64,000 bases of DNA from NCBI RefSeq assembly GCF_013408175.1, contig NZ_JACBYW010000002.1:62001-126000 (forward strand), given 5' to 3'. The notes under the pieces are model-generated. The model was not told the origin of the DNA and ran no database searches. It saw nothing but the letters and a program-made list of their open reading frames with translations. The position numbers were made by a program, and so were the translations under genes. This stretch comes from Actinopolyspora biskrensis. Lineage in GTDB: Bacteria; Actinomycetota; Actinomycetes; Mycobacteriales; Pseudonocardiaceae. Positions 12,523 through 37,904 of the stretch are shown one piece after another; within the stretch, counting starts at the first letter, position 1; every line of letters starts with the position of its first letter.

Positions 12523-12528
12523 GCACGT

Positions 12529-12700
12529 TGGTCCAAGCGAGCAACGGTCAGGAAGCCGGTGTGAATCCGGCACGGCCGGCGCCACTGTGACCGGGTAGCG
12601 GTTCTCCCGTACGAGTGCCACCGGGGTTTCCCAGGGAAGGCCGGAGGAGCGCGTCGATCCGGGAGTCAGGACACTGCCGTTGCCTCGTTCCGCAACCAGG
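12529..12700 (+). promoter_or_regulatory. Cobalamin (AdoCbl) riboswitch 1, upstream of the chelatase gene
   Basis: The leader holds the conserved cobalamin-aptamer elements in order: GGAAGCCGGTGTGAATCCGG, the B12 box GCCACTGTGA (12581-12590) followed by CCGGG, and the closing GGGAGTCAGGAC (about 12661-12672). It ends about 30 nt before the start codon, whose ribosome site (AGGAAGGA, 12717-12724) could be occluded by the expression platform. Known riboswitches of this class repress when adenosylcobalamin is abundant, so the chelatase-cobO-cobB genes should be off in high B12. Outer boundaries are approximate. Confidence 0.92.
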
Positions 12701-12732: not shown

Positions 12733-14922
12733 ATGACCGCTGCCACGTCGACCTCGTCGACCGTGCGTTATCCGTTCTCCGCTGTTGTCGGGCACGACGA
12801 TCTGCGTCTGGGGTTGCTGCTCAACGCGGTCTATCCCCGCATCGGCGGGGTGTTGGTGCGCGGCGAGAAGGGCACGGCCAAGTCCACCATCGTCCGTGCG
12901 CTCGCCTCGCTGCTGCCCGCGGTCGACGTGGTGGAGAACTGCCGGTTCGGTTGTGACCCCTCCGCTCCGGACTCGCGCTGCCCCGACGGGCCGCACGACG
13001 GTGAAGTCGGACGAACGCGGCGTGCCGCCCAACTGGTGGAACTCCCCGTGGGTGCCTCCGAGGACCGGCTGGTCGGGTCGTTGGACGTGGAACGCGCGTT
13101 GACCGAAGGTGTGCGCGCCTACCAGCCCGGCCTGTTGGCGGCGGCGCACCGCGGAGTCCTCTACGTCGACGAAGTGAACCTGCTGCACGACCACCTGGTC
13201 GACCTGTTGCTCGACGCCGCCGCGATGGGGAGGGCCCACGTCGAGCGCGAAGGTGTCTCCCTGTCGCACGCGGCCTCCTTCCTGCTGGTCGGCACCATGA
13301 ACCCGGAGGAGGGGGAGCTGCGTCCCCAGCTGCTGGACCGCTTCGGGCTGACGGTCCAGGTGTCGGCTTCCCGCGAGGTGGAGACACGTACCGAAGTCGT
13401 GCGGAGGCGGCTGCGGTTCGACGCCGATCCGGTCGGTTTCTCCGCGGAGTGGGCGGAGTCCGACGCCGAACTGGCCCGTCGGATCGCGGACGCCCGTTCC
13501 CGGGTGGACTCGGTCGAGCTGCCTTCTTCCGAGGTCAGGCGAATCGCTTCCGTGTGCGCTTCGTTCGAGGTGGACGGAATGCGCGCCGATCTGGTGCTGG
13601 CCCGTGCCGCCGTGGCCCACGCGGCTTGGCGCGGTGTGAACGCGGTCGCCGCGACCGATGTGGAGGCGGCGGCGCGGCTGGCGCTGCCGCACAGGCGCAG
13701 GCGTGACCCGTTCGACGAGCCGGGCATGGACGAGCAGCAGCTTCAGCAGGCCCTGGAGGACGCCGAAGCTGAGGTCGAGGCGGAGGAGACCACCGGAGGG
13801 GAGACCTCCGAGGGCACGGCGGAGAAGACGGCGGATCCGGGAGGTTCGGACGGCGAGTCCGGTTCGGACGGCTCCGACGGAAGCGAGAACCCCGAGGACG
13901 GACCGGAGGACGACGACCCCGGCGGAGGGGTCGGTGGTTCTCCGGACGGGAACGGTCCCGACGGGGGACCGGGCGGAGGCGCGGGCGGAAACGCGCCCTC
14001 GGAAGGCCCGTCCGGGGAGAACGGAACCGGCAACGGGCCCGGCAGTGCTCCCGAGGAGCGCACTTCCGGGGCAACGGAACCGGACTTCCGGGCACGCATG
14101 TTGGAGATCCCCGGTCTGGGCGAGGGGGCTCCGGGACGGCGTTCCAGGTCCCGCTCCCGCACCGGGCAGGTGGTGCGCGCGTCCGCGGTGGACGGACACG
14201 GTGTTCACCTGCAGGCCACTCTGGCCGCCGCGGCCCCCCACCAGTGCGCCCGCGGCAGGAGCGGTCCCGGACTGCGGTTGCGTCCGGAGGACCTGCGGCA
14301 CGGTGTCCGGGAGGGACGTGAGGGCAACCTCGTGCTGTTCGCGGTGGACGCCTCGGGGTCGATGGCCGCCCGGGAACGGATGTCGGCCGTCAGCGGTGCG
14401 GTACTCGCGCTGTTGCGGGACGCCTACCAGCGCAGGGACAAGGTGGGGGTCGTGACCTTTCGGGGGACCTCCGGGGAGGTCGCCCTGCCCCCCACCTCGT
14501 CGGTCGACACCGCCGCCGCGCGCATGCGCAAACTGCCCACCGGCGGAAAGACCCCCCTCGCGGACGGTCTGCTGACCGCGCGCAGGGTGATTCGCACCGA
14601 ACGGATGCGCGATCCGCAACGGCGCCCCCTGCTCGTGGTGCTCACCGACGGGAAGGCCACCGTGGGAGTGGACCCGGGGGGCGAAAGGGCCAACCGTGGC
14701 CGCAAGGCCGTCGACGACGCGCTGCGTTCGGCCGGCCTGCTGGCCGAGCTCGGTGTCGCGTCCGTGGTCGTGGACTGCGAGAGCGGTCCGATCCGGCTCG
14801 GGCTCGCCGACCGGCTCGCTCGGGGACTCGGCGCGCCCAACCTGCAGTTGTCCGAACTCTCGGCCGACAACGTGGCCGGAGTCGTCCGGGCCGCGCGAAC
14901 CGCAGGCCCGGTGCCCGCGTGA
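12733..14922 (+). CDS. Magnesium/cobalt chelatase ChlI-ChlD-like fusion (putative cobaltochelatase AAA+/VWA subunit)
   Basis: This 729-residue protein joins two chelatase modules. The N-terminal AAA+ domain has Walker [10 protein letters not shown] (44-52), Walker [11 protein letters not shown] and sensor region [20 protein letters not shown]. An acidic Gly/Glu/Asp-rich linker (about 335-455) follows. The C-terminal von Willebrand A domain has the MIDAS motif DASGS (539-543) and later [12 protein letters not shown] and VLTDGKA. In many actinobacteria such a ChlID fusion, rather than CobS and CobT, is thought to power the CobN chelatase; cobN lies at 26472-30086. It sits directly behind a cobalamin riboswitch and upstream of cobO and cobB, which supports cobalt insertion over magnesium chelation. 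Confidence 0.9.
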
Positions 14923-15193: not shown

Positions 15194-15808
15194 ATGCCAC
15201 AGGGGAAACCGAACAGCGTGCCCGACGACGGGCTGACCACACGGCAGCGGCGCAACAGGCCCCTGCTCGCCGTGCACACCGGATCCATGAAGGGCAAATC
15301 CACTTCGGCCTTCGGAATGGCCCTGCGCGGTTGGAACCAGGGGTGGTCCATCGGCGTGTTCCAGTTCGTCAAGTCCGCGAAATGGCGGGTGGGGGAGGAG
15401 TCCGCCTTCCGCGCCCTGGGCAGGCTGCACGAGGAGACCGGCGAGGGCGGTCCCGTCGAGTGGCACAAGATGGGCGAGGGCTGGTCGTGGACGCGCAAGA
15501 AGAGCACGGAGCAGGACCACGCCGCCGCCGCGCTGGAGGGCTGGCAGGAGATCGCGCGGCGGATCGAGCAGCAGCAGCACGATCTGTACGTGCTCGACGA
15601 GTTCAGCTACCCGCTGCACTGGGGCTGGGTCGACGTGGAGGAGGTCGTGCGGACCCTGCGGGACCGCCCCGGCTTCCAGCACGTGATCATCACCGGTCGT
15701 TACGCGCCGCAGCAGCTCGTCGACGCGGCCGACCTGGCGATGGAGACCGGCAAGCTCAAGCACCCGATGGACTCCGGGCAGAAGGGTCAGAAAGGCATCG
15801 AGTGGTGA
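15194..15808 (+). CDS. cobO: Cob(I)yrinic acid a,c-diamide adenosyltransferase
   Basis: This 204-residue protein is a CobO/BtuR-type adenosyltransferase, which transfers the 5'-deoxyadenosyl group of ATP to the cobalt of cob(I)yrinate a,c-diamide. The unusual P-loop GSMKGKSTSA (30-39) follows LLAVHT, and VFQFVKSAKWRVGEE, GEGWSWTRK, LYVLDEFSYPLHWGWVD and VIITGRYAPQQLVDAADLATE-like segments follow in family order. Length is normal (about 200). ATG 15194 has GGAG 8 bp upstream. Its stop overlaps the cobB start by 4 bp, so the two are coupled. It is expected to act after CobN, ChlID and CobB. Confidence 0.95.
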   Translation: MPQGKPNSVPDDGLTTRQRRNRPLLAVHTGSMKGKSTSAFGMALRGWNQGWSIGVFQFVKSAKWRVGEESAFRALGRLHEETGEGGPVEWHKMGEGWSWTRKKSTEQDHAAAALEGWQEIARRIEQQQHDLYVLDEFSYPLHWGWVDVEEVVRTLRDRPGFQHVIITGRYAPQQLVDAADLAMETGKLKHPMDSGQKGQKGIEW

Positions 15809-17211
15809 GCGCTTCGGTCTCGACCGCGGGGGCGGGGTCGGCCTCCCCCCGCCTCGTCGTAGCGGCTCCCGGGTCGGGCCACGGCAAGACGACCGTGGCC
15901 ACCGGGCTGCTGGCGGCGCTGCGCGGGCGTGGGACGGAGGTGGCCGGGTTCAAGGTCGGCCCCGACTACATCGATCCCGGCTACCACACGATCGCTTCGG
16001 GCGGCCCCGGACGCAATCTCGACCCGGTGCTGGTCGGTGAGCGGTCGATAGCACCGTTGTTCGCGCACGGTTCGCGCACCGCCGAGCTGTCGGTGATCGA
16101 AGGTGTCATGGGGCTTTTCGACGGTCGGCTCGGTTCGGCCGACGAGGTCCCGCCCTTCGGATCGACGGCGCACGTCGCCTCCCTGCTGGACGCGCCGGTC
16201 GTGCTCGTGGTCGACGCGAAGGGGCAGAGCCACAGCACGGCGGCGTTGCTGCACGGGTTCCGCTCCTTCCACCCACAGCTGCAACTGGCCGGGGTGATCT
16301 TCAACAGGGTAGGTTCGCAACGGCACGAGCAGGTGTTGCGCGAGGCGGCTCGAGCGGTCGGTATCAGGGTTCTGGGCGTGCTGGGAAGGGCCGATGACGT
16401 CCAGGTGCCCTCCCGGCATCTCGGTCTGATCACCGCCGCCGAACACGGTCCCGCTGCGGTGCGAGCCGTCGAGTCCATGGCCGATGTCGTGGCCGCCGGG
16501 GTCGATCTGGACGCGGTGGCGGCGCTCGCCGGAACGGCTCCGGCGTTGTCCGCGCGACCCTGGTCCCCGGACGAGGCGATCGGGGACGACACCGGGGTTC
16601 CCCGCGGCGGAGGGGCGCGGATCGCGGTGGCGGGAGGTGCCGCGTTCACCTTCGGCTACGCCGAACACGTGGAGCTGCTGCGCGCCGCGGGCGCGGAGGT
16701 GCTGCCCTTCGACCCGTTGAGCGCGGAGAGCCTGCCCGCGGGAACGACGGGGCTGGTGCTGCCCGGTGGTTTCCCCGAGCAGCACGTCGCCGAGCTGTCC
16801 GCCAACGTCGGGCTGCGCGAGCACGTCGCCGAGCTCGTCGCGAGGGGGGCTCCCGTGCACGCGGAGTGCGCCGGGTTGCTGTACCTGGCGCGCAGCTTGG
16901 ACGGATACCCGCTGTGCGGGGTTGTCGACGTCTCGGCGGAGATGTCCCCGAACCTGACCCTGGGGTACCGCGCGGCCGTTGCCGCCACCGACTCCGTGCT
17001 GTTCCGGGAGGGACAGCGCGTGACGGGGCACGAGTTCCACAGGACCGTGTTGCTGGAGTCGGAGGACTCCGCCCCGGCGTGGTACTGGCGTGCGGAGAAG
17101 GTGGTTACCGAAGGATTCGTCAGCGGCGGGGTTCACGCCTCCTACCTGCACACCCATCCGGCGGGCCAGCCCGGGTCGGTGGCCCGGTTCGTGCGGGCCT
17201 GCGTGCCGTAG
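15805..17211 (+). CDS. cobB: Hydrogenobyrinic/cobyrinic acid a,c-diamide synthase
   Basis: This 468-residue enzyme has two domains. The N-terminal ATP-dependent amidoligase has P-loop APGSGHGKTTVATGLLAALR (21-40), then VGPDYIDPGYH and VIEGVMGLFDG. The C-terminal class-I-like glutamine amidotransferase has nucleophile Cys355 in VHAECAGLLYLA and a later GHEFHRT. It amidates the a and c side chains of the corrin ring using glutamine and ATP. With the late-insertion enzymes CobG and CobN in the same region, hydrogenobyrinate is the expected substrate. Start GTG 15805 overlaps the cobO stop (GTGA); the frame stays open far upstream, but that region overlaps cobO and is not protein-like. Confidence 0.95.
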   Translation: MSASVSTAGAGSASPRLVVAAPGSGHGKTTVATGLLAALRGRGTEVAGFKVGPDYIDPGYHTIASGGPGRNLDPVLVGERSIAPLFAHGSRTAELSVIEGVMGLFDGRLGSADEVPPFGSTAHVASLLDAPVVLVVDAKGQSHSTAALLHGFRSFHPQLQLAGVIFNRVGSQRHEQVLREAARAVGIRVLGVLGRADDVQVPSRHLGLITAAEHGPAAVRAVESMADVVAAGVDLDAVAALAGTAPALSARPWSPDEAIGDDTGVPRGGGARIAVAGGAAFTFGYAEHVELLRAAGAEVLPFDPLSAESLPAGTTGLVLPGGFPEQHVAELSANVGLREHVAELVARGAPVHAECAGLLYLARSLDGYPLCGVVDVSAEMSPNLTLGYRAAVAATDSVLFREGQRVTGHEFHRTVLLESEDSAPAWYWRAEKVVTEGFVSGGVHASYLHTHPAGQPGSVARFVRACVP

Positions 17212-17465: not shown

Positions 17466-19181
17466 ATGACTCAGGGGACACGTACCGGGGTGGTCTCGTT
17501 CATCGGGGCCGGGCCCGGTGCGGCCGACCTGATGACGCTGCGTGGTGCGCGGCGAATCGCAGAGGCGGACATCGTGCTCTGGACTCCGGGCCTGGTCTCT
17601 CCTGAGTGCGTGCGCGAGCACGTCCGCGAGGACGCGGAGCTGATCGACACCACCGGGTCGAGTTCCCAAGAGGTGCTGGAGATATGTCGCAGGGCCGAGC
17701 GGGAGCGGCTCAGGGTGGCGCGCGTGTACTCGGGCGACGCCGTGCTGTGGAGCGCGGTGCAGCAGCAGTACGACGCCTGCTCCCGCATGGAGCTCGCGGT
17801 TGAGGTGGTGCCCGGGGTGGCCGGGTACTCGGCTGCGGCCGCCTCCGTGGGCAGGGAGCTCACCGGTTCGGCGGAGGAGCACTCCGTCTGGCTGGGGAAG
17901 CCGGACGGGAACTGGAACTCCCCGCCCGGTACGGGAGAAGTGCGCGAATTCGCCGAACACGGCGCGACGATGGCTCTGTCCGTTTCGGCCTCACGTACCG
18001 GACAGCTCGTGGAACGACTGCGTGCGGGAGGCTACGAGGACGACGTCCCGGTCGTGGTCGCCTACAAGGTCACCTGCCCCGACGAGCTGGTGCTGCGGAC
18101 GACCCTCGGGGAGGTGGCCGACCTCGTGAAGCGGCACCGCCTCTGGCGGCACACCCTGTTCCTCGTCGGAAACGCGTTGCAGCCGACCAGCACGCGTTCC
18201 CGCTCGTACGGTTCCGCGGGATCCAGATGGGGGTCCGGCAGTGGGACGGGATCCCCCGCGTCCGCGACTTCCCGGAGGGACGGGTACGGACGTCGTTTCG
18301 CGCGTGGTGACCGGGGCCGGGACGACTCCTCCGCGGAGACCCGGCGAGGCCCCTCCGGGGCCGGATCCGGGGACGACGCCCTGTTGTCGCGGTCGCGTGG
18401 TGACGAGCAGCGCGGTGGTTCCCGCGCCGAGGCGGACGTGGCCTGGTGGGCGGTGCGTGATTGGCAGCGGAACGCACGGGACGGCATCGTCAGGACCGAT
18501 GTTCGGGGGGTGCAAGGTCGGCGGGTGGAACAGGACGCCCAGGCTCCCGACCTGTTCACCACCTCGCAGGATCCGGAAGTGCTCGAGGGATTCCGAACCG
18601 CGCGCACGGGGAGGGACGGTCCCGTTCCGGAAGCGGGGGAGACAGCGGGCGACATCGCGGACCGGGGGTCCCCCGTGCAGGTGAGTTCAGTGGACGATGC
18701 CGCTCCCGCGGAGCAGAATGCGGCGAAAGAGGTATCCGCCGAAACCGTCGCGGAGCAGGATGTCGCTGAGCAGGACCTCGCCGACGGGAACACCGAAACC
18801 GAACCGGCCGCGAGCGAGGCCCCGTCTTCGGACTCCGCGGCAGACTCGACGGACCCGTCCGGTTCGGACAGCACCACAGCGGACTCCAGCGCCGCGGACC
18901 CCGGCACCGCGGATTCCGGCGTCGGGGACTCGGCCACCCGGACCTCGGAGCAGCGGGACTCGGGTGGTTCACGCGCCAAACAGCAGTCCTCCACCAAACA
19001 GCAGACCTCGAAAACGGGGACCAAGACCGGGACGGCCAGGTCCTCCGGCAAGTCCGGGACGAAGACGACGGGCCGGGGCAAGACCCAGCGAAAGACGACG
19101 AACACCTCCTCCGACTCGGAGGAGACTTCCTCCCGGAGCGGACGGTCGTCCCGACGGTCCGGCTCCGGAACTTCCGAATAG
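17466..19181 (+). CDS. Divergent CobM-like (precorrin-4 C11-methyltransferase family) protein with a long disordered C-terminal tail
   Basis: Residues 1 to about 245 are a tetrapyrrole methylase: VSFIGAGPGAADLMTLRGAR, IVLWTPGLVSPEC, RVYSGDAVLWSAV and VVPGVAGYSAAAASVGRELT. It aligns with the canonical CobM at 35935-36678 but differs in the SAM-binding loops (WTPGLV for LYAGSLV; SGDAVLWSA for SGDPSVFSA). About 325 further residues have no recognised fold: a Gly/Ser/Arg-rich linker, a short patch with WWAVRDWQR, an acidic Ser/Asp/Thr stretch of repeated ADS/DSS, and a Lys/Arg/Ser/Thr-rich end. GC-rich third codon positions persist through the tail, so it is probably translated. ATG 17466 has GAGGAGAG upstream. 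It may be redundant, altered in specificity or a scaffold. Confidence 0.8.
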   Translation: MTQGTRTGVVSFIGAGPGAADLMTLRGARRIAEADIVLWTPGLVSPECVREHVREDAELIDTTGSSSQEVLEICRRAERERLRVARVYSGDAVLWSAVQQQYDACSRMELAVEVVPGVAGYSAAAASVGRELTGSAEEHSVWLGKPDGNWNSPPGTGEVREFAEHGATMALSVSASRTGQLVERLRAGGYEDDVPVVVAYKVTCPDELVLRTTLGEVADLVKRHRLWRHTLFLVGNALQPTSTRSRSYGSAGSRWGSGSGTGSPASATSRRDGYGRRFARGDRGRDDSSAETRRGPSGAGSGDDALLSRSRGDEQRGGSRAEADVAWWAVRDWQRNARDGIVRTDVRGVQGRRVEQDAQAPDLFTTSQDPEVLEGFRTARTGRDGPVPEAGETAGDIADRGSPVQVSSVDDAAPAEQNAAKEVSAETVAEQDVAEQDLADGNTETEPAASEAPSSDSAADSTDPSGSDSTTADSSAADPGTADSGVGDSATRTSEQRDSGGSRAKQQSSTKQQTSKTGTKTGTARSSGKSGTKTTGRGKTQRKTTNTSSDSEETSSRSGRSSRRSGSGTSE

Positions 19182-19220
19182 CGGGCCCCGACGTCTCGGC
19201 TCGCGGGGCGCCGCTCGGCC

Positions 19221-19252
19221 CGCTGCCGTGGTGTTCCCGCGGCACGGCAGCG
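19221..19252 (+). terminator. Stem-loop after the CobM-like gene
   Basis: CGCTGCCGTG (19221-19230) pairs with CACGGCAGCG (19243-19252), 10 bp with a 12-nt loop, 40 bp after the stop. A second hairpin, GTCGGCAC (19274-19281) with GTGCCGAC (19289-19296), follows. Neither has a T-tract. The second could instead be an operator for the following gene. Confidence 0.45.
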
Positions 19253-19442
19253 CCGAGAACACCAGTGCCACCGGTCGGCACCGTGATCGTGCCGACGGGG
19301 TGGTTCCGCGCTACGTTGTTCCACGTCGCGGGAGCACCCCGGAGACCGAAGTGGTGAGGTTCCGACGACCTGCGCCCCGCAGGTCCGCGGAAGCCGGACC
19401 CCTGTTTTCGGTAACGACGAGCGCTCGGACGGAGAATGCGAC

Positions 19443-20651
19443 GTGACGGTCACGGTGATCGGAGTCGACGACGGCCCGTTGCCGGAAGGCGCGGCCGAGG
19501 TACTGAACTCCGCGGAACTGGTCGTGGGGTCCCGCGGGCAGCTGCGCACTCATGCGCCGGAGGGGGCGCGAACCGTCGAACTCGGGGCCTTCGGCCCCGC
19601 GTTGAGCGCGCTGTCCGCACTCACCGGTGACGAGACGGGAGTGGTGCTCGCCTCCGGCGATCCGGGTTTTTTCGGAGCTGTCCGGGCGCTGCGGGACAAG
19701 GGGCTGCGGTGCGCCGTGCTGCCCGCCCTGTCCAGCGTTCAGCGGCTCATGGCCCGGGTGGGGCGTTCCTGGGACGACGCCGCGGTCGTCAGCGCACGCG
19801 TGGGGGGCGCACGCCGTGCGCTCAACATGTGCCGGGCCCGTTCCGCCGTTGTGGTGCTGACGACCTCCGGCGCGGGGCCGGCCCAGCTGGGGGCGGGGCT
19901 GCGCGGGTGGCGGCGCACTCTCGTCGTCGGGGAGGACCTCGGCGGAGAGCACGAACGAGTGACGACGGTGGAGCCCGCCGAAGCGGCGGAACGAACCTGG
20001 CTGGAACCCAACGTCGTGTTCTGCGTGACCGATCCCGACGCCGTCCCCGAACGGGGTTGGCACGGTGGCGGCGAACCCGTTCCCCCTCCGGGGTGGGCTC
20101 TGCCGGAGGAGGAGTTCTCCCATCGGGAGGGCACCATCACCGGTTCCGAGGTACGTGCGGTCGCCCTGGCCGGACTGGCGCCGCGACCGGGATGCCTGGT
20201 CTGGGACGTGGGGGCCGGATCGGGATCCGTGGTGGTGGAATGCGCCCGGATGGGGGCTGCCGGCATCGCGGTCGAATCGGACGAGGCCCAGGTCGTTCGA
20301 CTGGTCTCCAACGCGACCGCACACGGGGTGGACGTTCGCGTGGTGGAGGGAGCGGCTCCGGGCGTGTTGCGCGAGTTGCCCAAACCGGACTCCGTTTTCG
20401 TCGGCACCTCCGACCCGGAGGTGCTCACCGCCTGCGCCCACGTGGGGGCCGAGCGTGTGGTGCTCGCCACGAACGAGCTCGATCGGGTGGCGGCCAGCAG
20501 GGGCGTGTTGCGTAACGCCGGGTACCGGGTGGACGGGGTGCAGCTCGCGGCCAACCGGATGTCCGAGGCCGAGGACGGATCCGCGCGGTTGACCGCCCGC
20601 GATCCCGTGGTGCTGCTCCGCGCCTTCCGAGCCGCGGACGAGCAGGTGTGA
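19443..20651 (+). CDS. Second, divergent CbiE-CbiT (CobL-like) fusion protein
   Basis: This 402-residue protein repeats the CobL layout. A CbiE-type methylase domain (residues 1 to about 195: VTVIGVDDGPLPEGAAEVL, VVGSRGQL, VVLASGDPGFFGAV) is followed by a CbiT-type Rossmann methyltransferase/decarboxylase (from about 220: ITGSEVRAVALAGLAPRPGC, VWDVGAGSGSVVVECARMG). The canonical CobL is at 36675-37904. Here the CbiT motif that normally reads FxGG-G is FVGTSDPEVL, and other loops differ, so it is a diverged paralog rather than a recent copy. GTG 19443 has GGAG 8 bp upstream, and its stop overlaps the CbiG-like start. In the canonical pathway CobL methylates C5 and C15 and decarboxylates the C12 acetate; whether this copy does so is unknown. 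Confidence 0.85.
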   Translation: MTVTVIGVDDGPLPEGAAEVLNSAELVVGSRGQLRTHAPEGARTVELGAFGPALSALSALTGDETGVVLASGDPGFFGAVRALRDKGLRCAVLPALSSVQRLMARVGRSWDDAAVVSARVGGARRALNMCRARSAVVVLTTSGAGPAQLGAGLRGWRRTLVVGEDLGGEHERVTTVEPAEAAERTWLEPNVVFCVTDPDAVPERGWHGGGEPVPPPGWALPEEEFSHREGTITGSEVRAVALAGLAPRPGCLVWDVGAGSGSVVVECARMGAAGIAVESDEAQVVRLVSNATAHGVDVRVVEGAAPGVLRELPKPDSVFVGTSDPEVLTACAHVGAERVVLATNELDRVAASRGVLRNAGYRVDGVQLAANRMSEAEDGSARLTARDPVVLLRAFRAADEQV

Positions 20652-21373
20652 GCGAACGCCGTGCGGTTTCCGGAACGCGAACCGGGCTCCTGACGGGGTC
20701 CGGCAGCCTCGCGGGGCCACGTGCACTGGCTGTCTCGCTCGGTGCGGAGGTCGAAGGTGACCTGGACGGGTGCCTCGCGGCTTTCGCGCGTGGTGTCCCG
20801 GTAGCGGTGCACAACCCGGACGGGTACGTGGTGGACCGTTTCGTCCGTGCGGGGGCCGTGGGGCGGGGCGAGGACGCCTCGTGGAACGTGGTGATCTCCG
20901 ACCTCTGCGGGGAGGCCGGGCAGGAACGAACGGTTCGGCTCGTTCCCCGCGGGCTCGTGGTCGGGGTCGGTGCCTCCAGTGGTGTTTCCGCGGACACCGT
21001 GTTGGCCGCGTTGTCCGGTCTGGACAGCTTGCTCGGACCGCATCCCCGAGCGGTTCGTGGAGTGGCCACAGTGGACCGCAGAGCGCGCGAGCCCGGTCTG
21101 GGCACGGCGCTTCGGGAGTACTCCCGTTGTCGGGGAGTCGAGAGCGACCCGCCGTTGTGGGGGTACGCGACCGAGGTGCTGTCCGGTGTCACCGTTCCGA
21201 GCCCGAGCGGTTCCGTGCGGAGCGCGCTCGGCACCGCCAGCGTCGCGGAGGCGGCCGCCCTGCGGGCCGCTTCCGAGCTCGGCGACGGTCGTGCTCGCTT
21301 GGTGTTGCCCAAGACGGTGGTCTCCGGGGTGACGTTGGCCGTCGCGCGAGTTCCCGCTCCGGCCGCCCGCTGA
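20648..21373 (+). CDS. CbiG-like protein lacking the N-terminal domain
   Basis: The last 140 of 241 residues match the C-terminal domain of CbiG (cobalt-precorrin-5A hydrolase): GLVVGVGASSGVSADTVLAA, GVATVDRRAREPGL, VTVPSPSGSVRSALGTASVA and EAAALRAA, ending LVLPKTVVSGVTLAVARV. The preceding 100 residues resemble only the middle of CbiG. The roughly 120-residue N-terminal domain is absent, and the usual GC(K/R)RG-like motif is GASSG. Classical CbiG opens the delta-lactone and releases acetaldehyde in the anaerobic route. Its function beside an oxygen-dependent CobG is unclear. The GTG start overlaps the upstream stop (GTGA), so it is coupled to the CbiE-CbiT gene. Confidence 0.8.
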   Translation: MSERRAVSGTRTGLLTGSGSLAGPRALAVSLGAEVEGDLDGCLAAFARGVPVAVHNPDGYVVDRFVRAGAVGRGEDASWNVVISDLCGEAGQERTVRLVPRGLVVGVGASSGVSADTVLAALSGLDSLLGPHPRAVRGVATVDRRAREPGLGTALREYSRCRGVESDPPLWGYATEVLSGVTVPSPSGSVRSALGTASVAEAAALRAASELGDGRARLVLPKTVVSGVTLAVARVPAPAAR

Positions 21374-21504: not shown

Positions 21505-21579
21505 CGCCTTACGGAAAGCCTTCTGTGCAGGAGGATCCTCGTCAAGTGGGTGCGGCCCGCTGTGCTGGGCAGGTGTGCC

Positions 21580-21585
21580 TAGGGT
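21580..21585 (+). promoter_or_regulatory. -10 element (TAGGGT), probable leaderless start
   Basis: TAGGGT is 7 nt upstream of the ATG of the class V aminotransferase gene. The intervening GGAAGCC could also act as a weak ribosome site. Confidence 0.45.
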
Positions 21586-21592
21586 GGAAGCC

Positions 21593-22693
21593 ATGGCACT
21601 GGTTGAACGCTCCCTACTAGGCCCGGGGCCGTCGAACACGTACCCGGAGGCCACCGCGGGGCTGGCTGCCCCACTGCTCGGTCACCTGGATCCCGAGTTC
21701 CTGACGCTGCTGGACGAGACCGGGGACCGTCTGCGGACCGTTTGGGGAACAGAGAACCTGCGGACACTGCCCCTCTCCGGAACCGGCTCCATCGGTATGG
21801 AGGCGGCTTTCGTCAACTTCGTGCGTCCCGGTGACGTCGTGGTCGTAGCGGTGAACGGTCTGTTCGGCGAGCGCATGTGCGACGTCGCGTCCCGTTACGG
21901 CGCCGAAGTCGTCCGGGTCGACCACGAGTGGGGCGAGCCCGTGGACATCCAGCGGGTGCTCGACGCGCATCCCGACCCCGCGCTGGTCGCGGCCGTTCAC
22001 GCCGAAACCTCCACCGGGGTGCGCAGCGACATCGCCGGTCTCGGTGCCGCCCTGCGCGCACGCGGTGAGCGCACCCTGCTGCTCGTCGACTGCGTCACCT
22101 CGATCGGTGGCGAGCGGGTCGATCTCGACTCCTGGAACGTGGACATCGCCTACGCGGGCACTCAGAAATGCCTCGGAGTGCCGCCGGGACTGGCTCCGTT
22201 CACCGTTTCCGAGCGCGCCTGGGAACGCAGGGTGGAGAAGCCGACCACCTGGTACCTGGACATGGGGCTGATCGGCAACTACGTGAACGGCGGGAGCTCG
22301 GGCGGCCGTGCCTATCACCACACGGCCCCCACGGCCATGGTCGCCTCCCTGCACGCGGCTCTCGGCCGGATCCTGCAGGAGGGCATGCCGGTGGTGGCCG
22401 AAAGGCACCGAGCCGCTGGTGAAGCACTCCAGGCGGGGCTGCAGGAGATGGGGCTGAGCCTGTTCGCCGCGGAGGGAAGCAGGCTGCACCAGCTCACGAG
22501 CGTGTGGGTCCCCGATGGCGTGGACTCGGCCGGTGTGCGCAAGCAGCTGTTGAACGACTACGGCATCGAGATCGGTGGCGGTGCGGGCAAGTTCGCCAAC
22601 AGCGTGTGGCGGATCGGCCTCATGGGCAACAACGCCCGCCTCGACCGCGTCGAGATGCTCCTGGGCGCGTTGCGCACGGTGCTCGGACGGTGA
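21593..22693 (+). CDS. Class V PLP-dependent aminotransferase (alanine-glyoxylate / serine-pyruvate type)
   Basis: This 366-residue fold-type I PLP enzyme has the N-terminal LGPGPSNTYPEA (9-20), LSGTGSIGMEAAFVNFVRPG, the PLP-aspartate region LLLVDCVTSIGGERVD and the Schiff-base Lys192 in YAGTQKCLGVPPGLAPF. The C-terminal GGGAGKFANSVWRIGLMGNN is also typical of alanine-glyoxylate aminotransferases. The amino donor cannot be decided from sequence; alanine, serine and purine-degradation roles are known in the family. ATG 21593 was chosen over a GTG six codons upstream because of the -10 and GGAAG spacing. It stands alone after the terminator of the cobalamin genes. Confidence 0.88.
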   Translation: MALVERSLLGPGPSNTYPEATAGLAAPLLGHLDPEFLTLLDETGDRLRTVWGTENLRTLPLSGTGSIGMEAAFVNFVRPGDVVVVAVNGLFGERMCDVASRYGAEVVRVDHEWGEPVDIQRVLDAHPDPALVAAVHAETSTGVRSDIAGLGAALRARGERTLLLVDCVTSIGGERVDLDSWNVDIAYAGTQKCLGVPPGLAPFTVSERAWERRVEKPTTWYLDMGLIGNYVNGGSSGGRAYHHTAPTAMVASLHAALGRILQEGMPVVAERHRAAGEALQAGLQEMGLSLFAAEGSRLHQLTSVWVPDGVDSAGVRKQLLNDYGIEIGGGAGKFANSVWRIGLMGNNARLDRVEMLLGALRTVLGR

Positions 22694-30396: not shown

Positions 30397-30452
30397 GCTG
30401 ACGTGACGAGACGCGCTCCTCGGCGTGTTTCGTGGCACACCTCCGCGGCCCG

Positions 30453-30458
30453 TAGCAT
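30453..30458 (+). promoter_or_regulatory. -10 element (TAGCAT) for cobG, probable leaderless start
   Basis: TAGCAT ends 7 nt before the cobG ATG. Together with the cobN promoter it makes a compact divergent control region. The cobG transcript would contain no riboswitch. Confidence 0.5.
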
Positions 30459-30465
30459 CGCCGGG

Positions 30466-31845
30466 ATGTCCGAAGGCTTCGCTTCCGAACGTGACAGGCC
30501 GGACGCCTGTCCGGGTGCGCTTCAGGTCCACCCCGCCGCCGACGGCGGTCTCGCGCGGATCCGCGTCCCGGGCGGGATGTTGAGCACCGAGCAGCTGCGA
30601 GTGCTGGTCACGGCCGCGGAGGAGCTGGGCAACTCCACGGTCGAGCTCACCTCGAGGGCCAACCTCCAGCTGCGCGGCGTCGAGTCCCCCGAAGAGCTCG
30701 GACGACGGATCGGCGCGGTGGGACTGCTTCCCTCGCTGACCCACGAACGGGTGCGGAACATAGTGGCCAGTCCCGGTGCAGGGCTGGACGACCCCGGGTG
30801 GTTGTCGGTGCCGCGTGCCGTCCGTGAACTGGACCGGGGGGTCTGCTCCGCTCCGCGGTTGGCAGAGCTGTCCGGACGTTTCCTGTTCACCGTGGACGAC
30901 GGGCGCGGGGACGTTTCGCGGCTGCGCGGTGACGTCGGCCTGCTGCCACTGGACGTGGGCACGGTCGCGGTGCTGCTCGGCGGAAACGATTCGGGAGTGC
31001 GCGTGGGGCCGGCCGACGCCGCGGATGCGGCCGTCGTCGCCGCGGAGGAGTTCCTCGCGGAACGGGACCGCCAAGGGGGCTCGGTCTGGCGAGTGGCCGA
31101 GCTGGACACACCGGGGAACCTCGCGGGCACGCTCCGTGCTCGAACGGGGACGGCGGAGGACACCGTTGTCGAAGTCACACCGCTTTCCGGGGTTCGGCGG
31201 GATCAGCAGGAAAAACCATCGGTGGGCGTCCTCGCGCGAACCCGGGGAGAGGTGGCCCTCGGGCTGGGGGCACCGCTGGGACGCTTGTCCCCAGCGCAGA
31301 TGCATAGCATCATACGAGCGGCCGAAGCCGCGTCCGGTGCCGTTCGACTGACCCCGTGGCGGACAGTGGTCCTACCGGGGGTCGACGAGCACGAGCACCA
31401 ATCGTGGCTTTCCGAACTGCACTCGTGCGGTTTGATCGTCGATCCGTCCTCGCCGTTCAACGGTGTGACCGCCTGCGCGGGCGATCCCGGATGTGCCAAG
31501 TCCCTGGCCGACGTGCACCGGGACGCCGCGTACAGCACGGCCCGCGGTGCGCCTGTCGCTCCGGGGGATCTGCCGGTGCACTGGGTCGGTTGCTCGCGTC
31601 GTTGCGGCCGTCCGCGCGGTCCGGTGGTGGAGGTGCTGGCCGGTTCCTCCGGGTACCGGGTCAGTTCCGGCGCGCGGGGCGACGAGGTGACCAGGGTGCA
31701 CGACGCCGGGGTGGAGACGGTGGCCGAGGCCGTGGAAGACGCGCGGCGTTCCGGTGCCGTGGCTCCCGCCGCGGGATCGCACGGCGGGTTCGGGACGGGC
31801 CACGTGAACAGCGACCAGGAGACGACGAACGAGGACGATCGGTGA
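30466..31845 (+). CDS. cobG: Precorrin-3B synthase (oxygen-dependent)
   Basis: This 459-residue enzyme has the sulfite/nitrite-reductase fold with two half repeats ([19 protein letters not shown] ... [13 protein letters not shown], later [17 protein letters not shown] ... [13 protein letters not shown]). The 4Fe-4S cluster ligands are intact: Cys337 and Cys343 in CAGDPGC, Cys376 and Cys380 in CSRRC. CobG is a mono-oxygenase-type enzyme needing molecular oxygen and makes precorrin-3B, the hallmark of the aerobic B12 route. ATG 30466 is preferred because of the upstream -10; an earlier in-frame start would lie in the divergent promoter. Its stop overlaps cobH by 4 bp (GTGA), starting the cobG-cobH-cobIJ operon. 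Confidence 0.92.
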
Positions 31846-35934: not shown

Positions 35935-36678
35935 TCAGCTCCGGCAGCGGTTCGCGGAGTACAGGTGGCTGTCCGGGAAGTGCCCCGCCGTGAGCACCTC
36001 GCCGACCACGACCACGGCGGTGCGTTCGATACCCGCGTTCCGGACCAGCCCGGCGATCTCGGAGAGGCTCCCGCGCAGCACCGTCTCGTCCGCCCTGCTG
36101 GCCCCCGCCACCACGGCGACCGGGCAGTCCGGTCCGTAGTTGGGCTCGAGCTGTTCGACGAGCTCCTCGATCCTGTTCACGGCCAGGTGCAGCACCATCG
36201 TGGCCCCGCTGAGCCCCAGCGTGGCGAGGTCCTCGCCCTCCGGCATGGGGGTGGCCCTGGCCGCCGTTCTGGTCAGCAGCACCGTCTGCCCCACACCGGG
36301 CACCGTGAACTCCCGGTTGAGAGCCGCGGCCGCGGCCGAGAACGCGGGAACTCCCGGCACCATCTCGTAGTCGACCCCGGCTTCGTCGAGCCTGCGCATC
36401 TGCTCGGCCACCGCGCTGAACACGGATGGGTCCCCGGAGTGCAACCTGGCGACGTCGAGTCCGCGCCGGTGTGCGTCGAGGATCTCCTCGAGGATCCCGT
36501 CGAGCGTCATGCGGGCCGTGTCGACCAGCCGGGCTCCCTCCGGACAGTGCTCCAGCAGCTCCTCGGGCACGAGGCTTCCCGCGTACAGGCACACCGAGCA
36601 GGAGGCTATGGTGTTCTGCCCGCGAACGGTGATGAGATCGGCCGCTCCCGGTCCGGCTCCGACGAAGTGAACGGTCAA
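35935..36678 (-). CDS. cobM: Precorrin-4 C11-methyltransferase (canonical copy)
   Basis: This 247-residue SAM-dependent methylase has all CobM/CbiF motifs: VHFVGAGPGAADLITVRGQ (3-21), VCLYAGSLVPEELLEHCPEG, RLHSGDPSVFSAVAEQM, VPGVPAFSAAAAALNREFTV and PVAVVAGASRADETVLRGSL. Length is normal, without any tail, unlike the CobM-like protein at 17466-19181. The start is TTG 36678, whose TTGA overlaps the cobL stop, so it is translationally coupled to cobL. It converges with cbiD with 36 bp between stops. Confidence 0.94.
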   Translation of the reverse strand: MTVHFVGAGPGAADLITVRGQNTIASCSVCLYAGSLVPEELLEHCPEGARLVDTARMTLDGILEEILDAHRRGLDVARLHSGDPSVFSAVAEQMRRLDEAGVDYEMVPGVPAFSAAAAALNREFTVPGVGQTVLLTRTAARATPMPEGEDLATLGLSGATMVLHLAVNRIEELVEQLEPNYGPDCPVAVVAGASRADETVLRGSLSEIAGLVRNAGIERTAVVVVGEVLTAGHFPDSHLYSANRCRS

Positions 36679-37904
36679 GGCTTGGTCACCGCCCACTGAG
36701 TCACTCGCATGGCCGGCCGCCAGGCGGTGAAACCGCCGATCGGGCCCGCCTGCTCGATACCGATCCGTACCAGTTCCCCGCCCATGCGGGAATACCATTC
36801 GGTCACTGTCGACTCCGATTCCATCGTCACGGCATTGACCACGAGACGCCCACCGCGCGGCAGCGCGTCCACGCAGGTCTCCAGCACACCGGGAGCACTC
36901 ACGCCTCCGCCGACGAACACGGCGTCCGGCTGTTCCAGGTCCCGCAGCCCCTCCGGGGCGGTTCCGCGCACGATCCGCAGGGAACCGGCCCCGAGCGCGG
37001 TGGCGTTGTTCGCCGTGCGCTCGGCCCGTCGCGGGTCCCGCTCGACGGCGATCGCACGGCAGGAAGCGGCGCTGCGTACCCATTCGATCGCGATGCTGCC
37101 CGAACCGGCCCCCACGTCCCACAGCAGCTCACCGGCACGGGGGGCCAGCCGCGCCAGCGTGCTCGCCCGCACGTCCCGTTTCGTGAGCTGCCCGTCGTGT
37201 TCGAACAGCTCCTCCGACAGCCCCGGGGTCGACGGCAACCGCCCCGTTCGGCGGTCACTCGCGCACTCGACGGCGACGATGTTCAACGCCGCGGTGCTGG
37301 CCCGCAGTTCCGCGGCGGTTTCCCGGAGAGCCCGTTCGTCCCGCCCACCCAGGTTCTCCAGCACCGTCAGCTCACTGGGGCCGAAGCCGTGGGCGGTCAG
37401 CAGTTCGGCCACCGCGGCCGGAGTGGTTCCGTCGGAGCTGAGCACCAGGACGCGCTCGCCCGGCGCGAGTCCCGGCAGCAGGTTCTCGACCGGTCTTCCG
37501 ACGAGGTTGACCACCCGGGCGTCCTGGGCGGGCCAGCCGAGTCGGGCGCAGGCCAGCGAAACCGAGGACGGCTGGGGGAGAACGTCGAGCCGTTCCGGTC
37601 CGAGCACCCTGGCCAGCGTGGCCCCGATCCCGTGGAACATCGGATCGCCGCTGGCCAGCACGCATATCGAACGTCCGGCGTGCTCGGCCAGCAGTCCGGG
37701 GAGCGCGGGTAGCAGCGGGGACGGCCAGGGCACCCGCTCACCGGTGGTCTCCGGGACCAGTGCGAGCTGCCGGTGGCTGCCCATGAGGACTTCGGCGGTC
37801 TCGGCGGTGCGGCGTGCGGCGGGGGAGAGCCCCTCCCAGCCGTCGGCACCGATCCCGACGACGTGCACCCGGTCGGGGTCGCCGCTCGCGGGCTCGTCGC
37901 TCAC
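36675..37904 (-). CDS. cobL: Precorrin-6Y C5,15-methyltransferase (decarboxylating), canonical copy
   Basis: This 409-residue fusion has an N-terminal CbiE methylase (VHVVGIGADGWEGLSPAARR, VLMGSHRQLALVP, CVLASGDPMFHGIGATLAR, VLPQPSSVSLACARLGWPAQ) and a C-terminal CbiT Rossmann domain (LTKRDVRASTLARLAPRAGE, LLWDVGAGSGSIAIEWVRSA, DAVFVGGGVSAPGVLETCVD). It adds methyl groups at C5 and C15 and removes the C12 acetate carboxyl. GTG 37904 is preceded by AGGAGG at 37915-37920. It leads the two-gene cobL-cobM operon. The second, divergent fusion is at 19443-20651. Confidence 0.95.
   Translation of the reverse strand: MSDEPASGDPDRVHVVGIGADGWEGLSPAARRTAETAEVLMGSHRQLALVPETTGERVPWPSPLLPALPGLLAEHAGRSICVLASGDPMFHGIGATLARVLGPERLDVLPQPSSVSLACARLGWPAQDARVVNLVGRPVENLLPGLAPGERVLVLSSDGTTPAAVAELLTAHGFGPSELTVLENLGGRDERALRETAAELRASTAALNIVAVECASDRRTGRLPSTPGLSEELFEHDGQLTKRDVRASTLARLAPRAGELLWDVGAGSGSIAIEWVRSAASCRAIAVERDPRRAERTANNATALGAGSLRIVRGTAPEGLRDLEQPDAVFVGGGVSAPGVLETCVDALPRGGRLVVNAVTMESESTVTEWYSRMGGELVRIGIEQAGPIGGFTAWRPAMRVTQWAVTKP

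Follow-up and report, generated by a model that had tools for sequence, protein, structure and literature searches.

The closest described relatives of the genes considered here belong to corrin-ring synthesis: CobM or CbiF, the precorrin-4 C11-methyltransferase (4e16, 1cbf, 3ndc); CobL, a fusion of CbiE and CbiT (3njr, 3e05, 1f38, 2bb3); CobE, the counterpart of the C-terminal domain of CbiG (2w6k, 2w6l, 3by5); and, at the level of gene order, the cob operon of Streptomyces and Micromonospora, laid out chlID-cobO-cobB-cobI-cobM-(cbiD)-cobL-cbiG/cobJ ... cobH-cbiX and called type B below. In a 64,000-nucleotide stretch of Actinopolyspora biskrensis DNA (contig NZ_JACBYW010000002.1; the whole stretch is referred to as the window), an initial annotation had placed three consecutive genes related to these (17466-21373) beside a canonical set. 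Open reading frames were indeed found on the + strand for a CobM-like (17466-19181), a CobL-like (19443-20651) and a CbiG-like protein (20648-21373), the last two sharing a 4-base overlap, and canonical cobM and cobL are also in the window. The trio are orthologs of CobM, CobL and CbiG from the type-B operon, and the canonical set belongs to a separate lineage, type A. The trio copies of CobM and CobL (CobM' and CobL') have lost conserved motifs while retaining their main S-adenosylmethionine (SAM) motifs, and they are under purifying selection in Actinopolyspora. It is thus proposed, with moderate confidence, that the trio is what is left of a second type-B corrin-ring operon and that CobM' and CobL' are SAM-fold pseudoenzymes retained for another role; no prior description of it was found among the matches listed in the open-access literature.

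CobM' shares with CobM and CbiF the tetrapyrrole methylase domain and its GAGPG motif, but it lacks the TPMP loop and the SHLY end and adds a tail of 316 residues that carries an AWWAVRDWQ motif. CobL' has the two-domain order, Rossmann SAM motif and predicted fold of CobL, but not AHGR, GGGG or NP, and its CbiT part scores under the TIGR02469 cut-off. The third protein resembles CobE in its PF01890 domain and differs from it in having ~100 extra N-terminal residues under weak constraint and in descending from a cut-down CbiG-CobJ fusion. The row as a whole resembles the type-B operon in its order (chlID-cobO-cobB-...-cobM-...-cobL-cbiG) and in falling in a common CobL clade; unlike that operon, it is without cobI, cbiD, cobJ, cobH and cbiX. 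Its features, with those of the canonical copies, are as follows (dN/dS, ratio of nonsynonymous to synonymous substitution rates; AF2, AlphaFold2).

12528-12695, + strand: cobalamin riboswitch ahead of the chelatase and trio row (Rfam RF00174, 79.5 bits, E 5.9e-18)
12733-14922, + strand: ChlI-ChlD-type cobaltochelatase subunit, encoded by the opening gene of the reduced type-B row (TIGR02442, 782.5 bits)
15194-15808, + strand: cobO, corrinoid adenosyltransferase (TIGR00708, 232.5 bits)
15805-17211, + strand: cobB, (hydrogeno)byrinic acid a,c-diamide synthase (NF002204, 498.4 bits; TIGR00379, 380.5 bits)
17466-18230, + strand: CobM' core, tetrapyrrole methylase domain (PF00590; motifs; dN/dS 0.12-0.29; AF2)
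18231-19181, + strand: CobM' C-terminal tail, S/G/A/R/T-rich with a basic end (no Pfam match at E<=1)
18444-18467, + strand: WWAVRDWQ, conserved tail motif (10/10 Actinopolyspora genomes)
19443-20651, + strand: CobL', CbiE-CbiT fusion (TIGR02467/TIGR02469; motifs; dN/dS 0.10-0.21; AF2/Foldseek)
20648-21373, + strand: CobE-like protein (CbiG C-terminal domain), left over from a CbiG-CobJ fusion (PF01890 only; dN/dS 0.30-0.58)
35935-36678, - strand: canonical type-A cobM (TIGR01465, 286.8 bits, above cut-off)
36675-37904, - strand: canonical type-A cobL (CbiE 175.5 and CbiT 108.7 bits, both above cut-offs)

The family scores agree with the earlier description of the trio as diverged, with a CbiG that has lost its N-terminal domain. 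CobM' (571 aa, tail included) reaches 210.7 bits against the TIGR01465 cut-off of 259.65 and so falls outside CobM as that model defines it; CobL' (402 aa) passes for CbiE (113.5 against 92.9 bits) but not for CbiT (63.1 against 78.3), and thus falls short of CobL, for which both domains should score above cut-off. In the third protein (241 aa) a Pfam scan found CbiG_C (PF01890) and no CbiG_N (PF11760), making it CobE-like rather than a full CbiG; among solved proteins it comes closest to CobE (2w6k, E 4e-7), and CobM' to 4e16 (E 6e-37). AF2 models suggest that CobL' and CobM' retain their folds: the CobL' model (mean predicted local distance difference test score, pLDDT, 84) finds CbiT structures as its best Foldseek matches (3e05, 3njr), with the CbiE structure 2bb3 at rank 13, and the CobM' model (mean pLDDT 76) has its core minimum at residues 131-150, beside an altered loop. 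The riboswitch that had been noted ahead of the chelatase is present and lies upstream on the same strand, as in a cobalamin-regulated operon; the + strand order is riboswitch, chlID, cobO, cobB and then the trio, probably read as one transcript throughout, and the chelatase gene occupies the same place as in complete type-B operons. The type-A set of the window comprises cobG, cobH, cobIJ, cobK, cbiD, cobM and cobL, with cobN adjoining, and CobL is encoded twice in the host genome, once in the trio and once in the canonical set.

Descent and distribution of the trio

Close orthologs of CobL' (E <=1e-56) occur in 23 of 121 genomes of the order, the window's own included. In 13 loci, Micromonospora-like and from other families, the ortholog is the sole CobL and lies inside a complete row (chlID-cobO-cobB-cobI-cobM'-cbiD-cobL'-cbiG-cobJ with cobH); nine of the 13 have cobN inside the same 20 kb. 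By gene mapping, complete type-B rows were found in Streptomyces, Micromonospora, Actinomadura, Saccharopolyspora spinosa and others, with no cbiD in the row of the Streptomyces loci. At loci beside a type-A set, cobI, cbiD, cobH and cbiX are missing (the loss of CobI and CbiX being judged at the loci), while cobM' and cobL' persist, usually along with the CbiG part; chlID, cobO and cobB are retained next to the copies in 24 of 30 such duplicated loci, presumably because type A uses them. The suggestion that the trio forms an alternative ring-contraction or decarboxylation branch is not borne out, relatives holding the same genes as their only CobM, CobL and CbiG in complete operons and the reduced loci lacking cobI, cbiD, cobH and cbiX.

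A CobL tree of 105 rows, built by a quick method without 11 loci that were incomplete or odd, rows that were nearly identical and roughly three quarters of the named complete loci numbered L150 upwards, places type A (12 rows) on one side and type B together with the reduced copies (93 rows) on the other, each with a Shimodaira-Hasegawa-like approximate likelihood ratio (SH-aLRT) support of 100. The window's CobL' lies in the type-B clade and not with type-A CobL, among 23 rows (16 reduced, 7 complete) grouped with support 99. Horizontal gain of three odd genes is not favoured, as CobL' groups there with Actinopolyspora, Halosaccharopolyspora and Saccharopolyspora. A place inside canonical clades with all catalytic residues had been named as a finding that would speak against a distinct system; the placement holds for CobL', but the conserved motifs of the clade are absent. 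The reduced state changes seven times on the tree, five of the changes being forced by well-supported branches, which suggests several separate reductions, a count resting on one gene tree; re-gain of whole operons by transfer may be the explanation instead. The CbiG-CobJ protein, a fusion of CbiG_N, a middle region, CbiG_C and CobJ of 576 aa in the complete operon of G015, has 559 aa in G111, 429 aa in G083, where CobJ is a stub, and 241 aa in the window, where CbiG_C is the only domain.

In an automatically drawn sample of 150 genomes of the family, CbiC was found in 136, of which 110 are type A, 26 type B and none both (type assigned by score, 221-250 versus 157-205 bits). CobL', separated from canonical CobL by E-value (least clearly in G218 and G254), occurs in 58 of the 110 type-A genomes, in all 26 type-B genomes and in six of the 14 without CbiC, these six including G131 (a 74% complete assembly) and the unclear G254; genomes without any trio gene register only as absences. 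Since no genome has both CbiC types, the type-B mutase is gone where type A exists, and CobL' is kept in about half; co-occurrence of trio and canonical genes is therefore common but not universal. Hand-chosen sets of 80 genomes, one used for CbiC and CbiG_C and another for CbiD and CobM', gave a second CbiC in none of the 29 genomes having both CobL types, of which 24 have CbiG_C and 26 CobM' (E <1e-50), and two CbiD matches in none of 80 (one in 48, none in 32).

Genus labels of the relatives' genomes rest on nearness to named records. All 22 genomes of g72 (Saccharopolyspora, labelled from contigs of S. spinosa and S. rosea) have CobL': 12 show two CobL matches, type A being the other, and 10 have CobL' only. 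The CbiC of each of these 10 is type-B-like, and it is type-A-like in the three genomes with two CobL matches that were tested. In g53 (Pseudonocardia-like, 25 genomes) type-A CobL and CobL' almost never occur together, 19 having type-A CobL alone and five CobL' alone, with G398 unresolved; the type-A genome G124 of this genus (L114) has a CobE-like gene beside chlID-cobO-cobB, without CobM' and CobL'. The listed CobL' matches of g5, g56 and g69 (e.g. L048, L090, L091) are without the N-terminal half of CbiE, in open frames of ~270 residues or more. The Kutzneria-like genome G217 (L204, 8762-14419) contains a third corrin group of CbiC, CobM, CobJ, a CysG-like gene and CbiX, adjoining a partly reduced type-B operon whose CobM' is without TPMP and whose sole CobL' keeps GGGG; extra CbiC matches were also seen in G138, G170, G197, G233, G248 and G264.

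Some copies are kept without corrin synthesis. CobL' is present in G141, G174, G149 and G179, in which canonical CobL, CbiC and CbiD were all absent, and CobM' in G158 and G148, in which CobL, CbiC, CbiD and CbiG_C were absent; G141 keeps CobM' as well as CobL'. For CobL', the pair G141/G174 gives a dN/dS of 0.11 and the pair G149/G179 one of 0.32. A guanidine-III riboswitch lies near CobL' at 6832-6896 of L084, from an Actinophytocola-like genome.

Motif loss and selection in CobM' and CobL'

Motifs, named from their conservation in sole copies, were counted in fetched loci, "sole" meaning the 23 genomes with type-B CobL only and "duplicated" those with type A also present. For CobL there are 30 duplicated copies; for CobM there are 29, G145 being taken at a separate CobM' locus and G273 and G276 (type A with CobM' and no CobL') being added. 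The Kutzneria-like genomes G138, G217 and G126 have mixed sets and were counted separately. The clearest losses are at TPMP, SHLY, AHGR, GGGG and NP. TPMP is found in 21 of 23 sole CobM' (TSMP in the other two) versus 0/29 duplicated, 0/3 no-corrin and 0/3 Kutzneria-like copies, and SHLY in 19 of 23 (SRLY in the other four) versus 0/29. AHGR of CobL' is present in every sole copy (23/23), in no duplicated one (0/30) and in one of four no-corrin copies; NP falls from 23/23 to 4/30 and GGGG from 22/23 to 11/30. Named complete loci have TPMP, AHGR and GGGG in 43 of 43 cases, and a named, reduced Crossiella locus outside these counts (L122) has SRLY and GGGG. The main SAM motifs persist, GAGPG in 23/23 sole and 28/29 duplicated CobM' and the SAM motif of CobL' in 23/23 and 30/30.

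The window copies follow this pattern. CobM' keeps GAGPG and reads GDA for GDP, NSPP for TPMP and SRSY for SHLY; CobL' keeps DVGAGSG and reads ARVG for AHGR, GTSD for GGGG and DP for NP. The altered glycine region reported for CbiT, FVGTSD in place of FVGGGG, is thus confirmed, while the reported difference in SAM-binding loops applies to the GDP loop of CobM' but not to the main motifs DVGAGSG and GAGPG. In MT0146/CbiT, Asn177 lies near the proposed precorrin pocket according to the available portion of PMC3672029; the window's CobL', which reads RDP, has no equivalent of this asparagine and has lost the glycine loop, and the pocket arginine equivalent to Arg22 is present in its EVR. If the lost motifs belong to the active site, as is presumed, the precorrin-4 C11 and precorrin-6B C5/C15 chemistry would be gone.

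Within Actinopolyspora (10 rows, some partial; for CobM', nine genomes plus A. righensis), the windows around the TPMP loop, GGGG and NP stand at the 94th, 89th and 82nd percentiles of variability, as against the 6th, 1st and 12th in 28 complete operons, where those around TPMP, GGGG, NP, GDP, AHGR and SHLY are all at or below the 12th; DVGAGSG (1st) and GAGPGAADL (4th) are still fixed in Actinopolyspora. By the Nei-Gojobori method, dN/dS in Actinopolyspora is 0.12-0.29 for CobM', 0.10-0.21 for CobL' and 0.30-0.58 for the CobE-like protein, compared with 0.15-0.31 for cobB, 0.07-0.21 for chlID, 0.01-0.11 for cobO and 0.06-0.10 for cobN; third positions are strongly GC-biased, which probably depresses dS and inflates these ratios. 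CobM' and CobL' thus combine loss of the presumed active-site constraint with continued purifying selection, a combination that is weaker for the CobE-like protein. Of the three roles raised in the initial annotation, that of pseudoenzymes fits best, conserved motifs being lost with SAM motifs and selection kept.

The C-terminal tail of CobM'

The tail of the window's CobM' is of low complexity and, from its composition, probably disordered. Tails of at least 80 aa occur in 28/28 duplicated copies (G276, in which CobM' is cut by the contig end, being excluded), 5/23 sole, 3/3 Kutzneria-like and 2/3 no-corrin copies, and every one of them has more Lys/Arg than Asp/Glu in its last 45 residues. 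A loose pattern for the AWWAVRDWQ-type motif matches 19/28 duplicated, 3/23 sole, 2/3 Kutzneria-like and 2/3 no-corrin copies; in Actinopolyspora the motif is invariant in all 10 genomes. The long tail is absent from complete Streptomyces-type CobM in the tail table, and among 47 named loci from L145 on a long basic-ended tail appears in two, both reduced Actinokineospora. Loci fetched from g72 and g53, the two genera that inform on tail length against retention, differ, CobM' carrying tails in the former and CobM having tails of ~30 aa in the latter.

In the sequences searched, the motif goes with CobM'. In six frames of the window and of loci longer than 5,500 bases, W-x(1,2)-V-R-[DE]-W-Q occurs 29 times, always in or just after CobM'. 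As a DNA pattern, WW.VR[DE]WQ was found once each in 11 of 60 family genomes (0/60 for the backward-pattern control), all 11 sites lying shortly after CobM' by coordinates. Two CobM' tails tested had no Pfam match at E<=1, which speaks against a known domain in them.

Explanations for retention

The proposed course of events is that a second type-B operon, standing beside type A, loses cobI, cbiD, cobH and cbiX and keeps cobM', cobL' and usually the CbiG part, CobM' and CobL' then persisting as SAM-fold pseudoenzymes. The second role of CobM' would most likely reside in its long tail, the AWWAVRDWQ motif docking a partner and the Lys/Arg-rich end holding a polyanion such as DNA or RNA; CobL' would be a SAM-binding partner, and the CobE-like protein, the least constrained, may be on its way out. 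A more specific and only tentative form of this proposal makes CobM' a two-function protein, in which a B12 methyltransferase domain is joined to a disordered tail, with its docking motif and basic end, that has a non-B12 job, such as SAM-tuned binding to nucleic acid or a scaffold, with CobL' as possible SAM-binding partner; the tail would then be the reason why CobM' has outlasted its own catalysis, and even corrin synthesis as a whole, in one lineage after another.

Several observations weigh against retention for a second role. No CobL' was seen in 52 of the 110 type-A genomes, and a cobalamin riboswitch at the Rfam threshold was found in none of seven detached or relocated loci (135,000 bases). 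The loss of activity in CobM' and CobL' is itself read from motifs, and these do not all behave alike: the GDP loop of CobM', a SAM element, survives in 21/23 sole but only 19/29 duplicated copies and varies within Actinopolyspora (71st percentile); the EVR of CbiT, with its arginine, is still found in 22/30 duplicated copies (22/23 sole); and AHGR (64th percentile) and SHLY (37th) are not strikingly variable in Actinopolyspora. In other reduced groups dN/dS is 0.08-0.58, mostly 0.2-0.6, compared with 0.10-0.30 in complete Saccharopolyspora, values that fit relaxed but not neutral constraint. As for the tail, nine of 28 duplicated CobM' have a basic tail and no AWW-type motif, G148 keeps CobM' without a long tail, and tail and motif are also present in the complete, presumably active operons of G220, G251 and G151, so that neither of them originated with the loss; CobL' is without a tail of this kind, which leaves its own retention unexplained.

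Slow decay, in which the trio has been functionless since type A took over and stays open mainly because stops are rare in a GC-rich genome, would explain the lost motifs, the stepwise erosion of CbiG-CobJ (576 to 559, 429 and 241 aa), the dN/dS of the CobE-like protein, the CobL' matches of g5, g56 and g69 that begin only near residue 80-100, and the single stop within the aligned stretch of seven listed CobL' rows, at least three of them sole copies. It is nevertheless a doubtful explanation, given that dN/dS for CobM' and CobL' in Actinopolyspora (0.10-0.29) is on a par with that of cobB and chlID, that the GAGPG and DVGAGSG windows are among the most conserved, that the tail motif is invariant in that genus, and that outside g5, g56 and g69 most listed CobL' rows are nearly full length in one frame. 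Less probable still is that CobM' and CobL' serve type A as partner subunits, forming mixed oligomers with its CobM and CobL or passing intermediates, and so regulate or stabilise it. The four genomes that keep CobL' without canonical CobL, CbiC and CbiD, the two further genomes that keep CobM' without any CobL, and the type-A genomes lacking CobL' all speak against such a role, even though chlID, cobO and cobB stay alongside in 24 of 30 duplicated loci (the riboswitch evidence coming from the window only), AF2 predicts that the folds are kept, and CbiT quaternary arrangement is described as conserved among solved homologs in the available part of PMC3672029.

Changed enzymes that methylate or decarboxylate another tetrapyrrole, whether a modified corrinoid or a siroheme derivative, seem very unlikely. 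The kept SAM motifs and the CysG-like gene near many loci would suit them; however, the altered loops vary by species with no new shared motif seen, and most of them vary even within Actinopolyspora, which disfavours the earlier idea of action on a modified corrinoid. CysG also stands beside the complete type-B operons of G217, G136, G151, G251 and G346; the neighbourhood therefore looks like inherited order, and the siroheme link was dropped.

If the trio is indeed a set of retained pseudoenzymes, it represents a natural, repeated experiment in the change from enzyme to pseudoenzyme: in parallel cases, the same methyltransferases of B12 synthesis seem to shed their active-site motifs beside a second pathway and yet stay under selection. 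Saccharopolyspora holds complete and reduced states in one genus, which makes direct tests possible. For annotation and flux modelling, second cobM and cobL copies in these genomes should then not be counted as B12 capacity, and an uncharacterised tail motif would have been found on a well-known enzyme.

The class-V aminotransferase gene that follows the trio (21575-22693) comes closest to the models of BhcA and of pyridoxamine-pyruvate transaminase, with scores far under their cut-offs. It occupies this place in Actinopolyspora, Halosaccharopolyspora lacisalsi and G151 (85-98% identity); as a fourth member of the row it was rejected because three Streptomyces/Kitasatospora loci gave only 30-33% identical matches. 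Contigs titled "Melainabacteria" (L125) and "Rhodococcus rhodnii" (L130) carry Pseudonocardiaceae-type operons, so that their titles look wrong; the L130 operon adjoins Kibdelosporangium in the CobL tree. Among the other corrin genes of the window, cobG (30403-31845) evolves fast in Actinopolyspora, with a dN/dS of 0.20-0.46 compared with the lower values of cobN and chlID.

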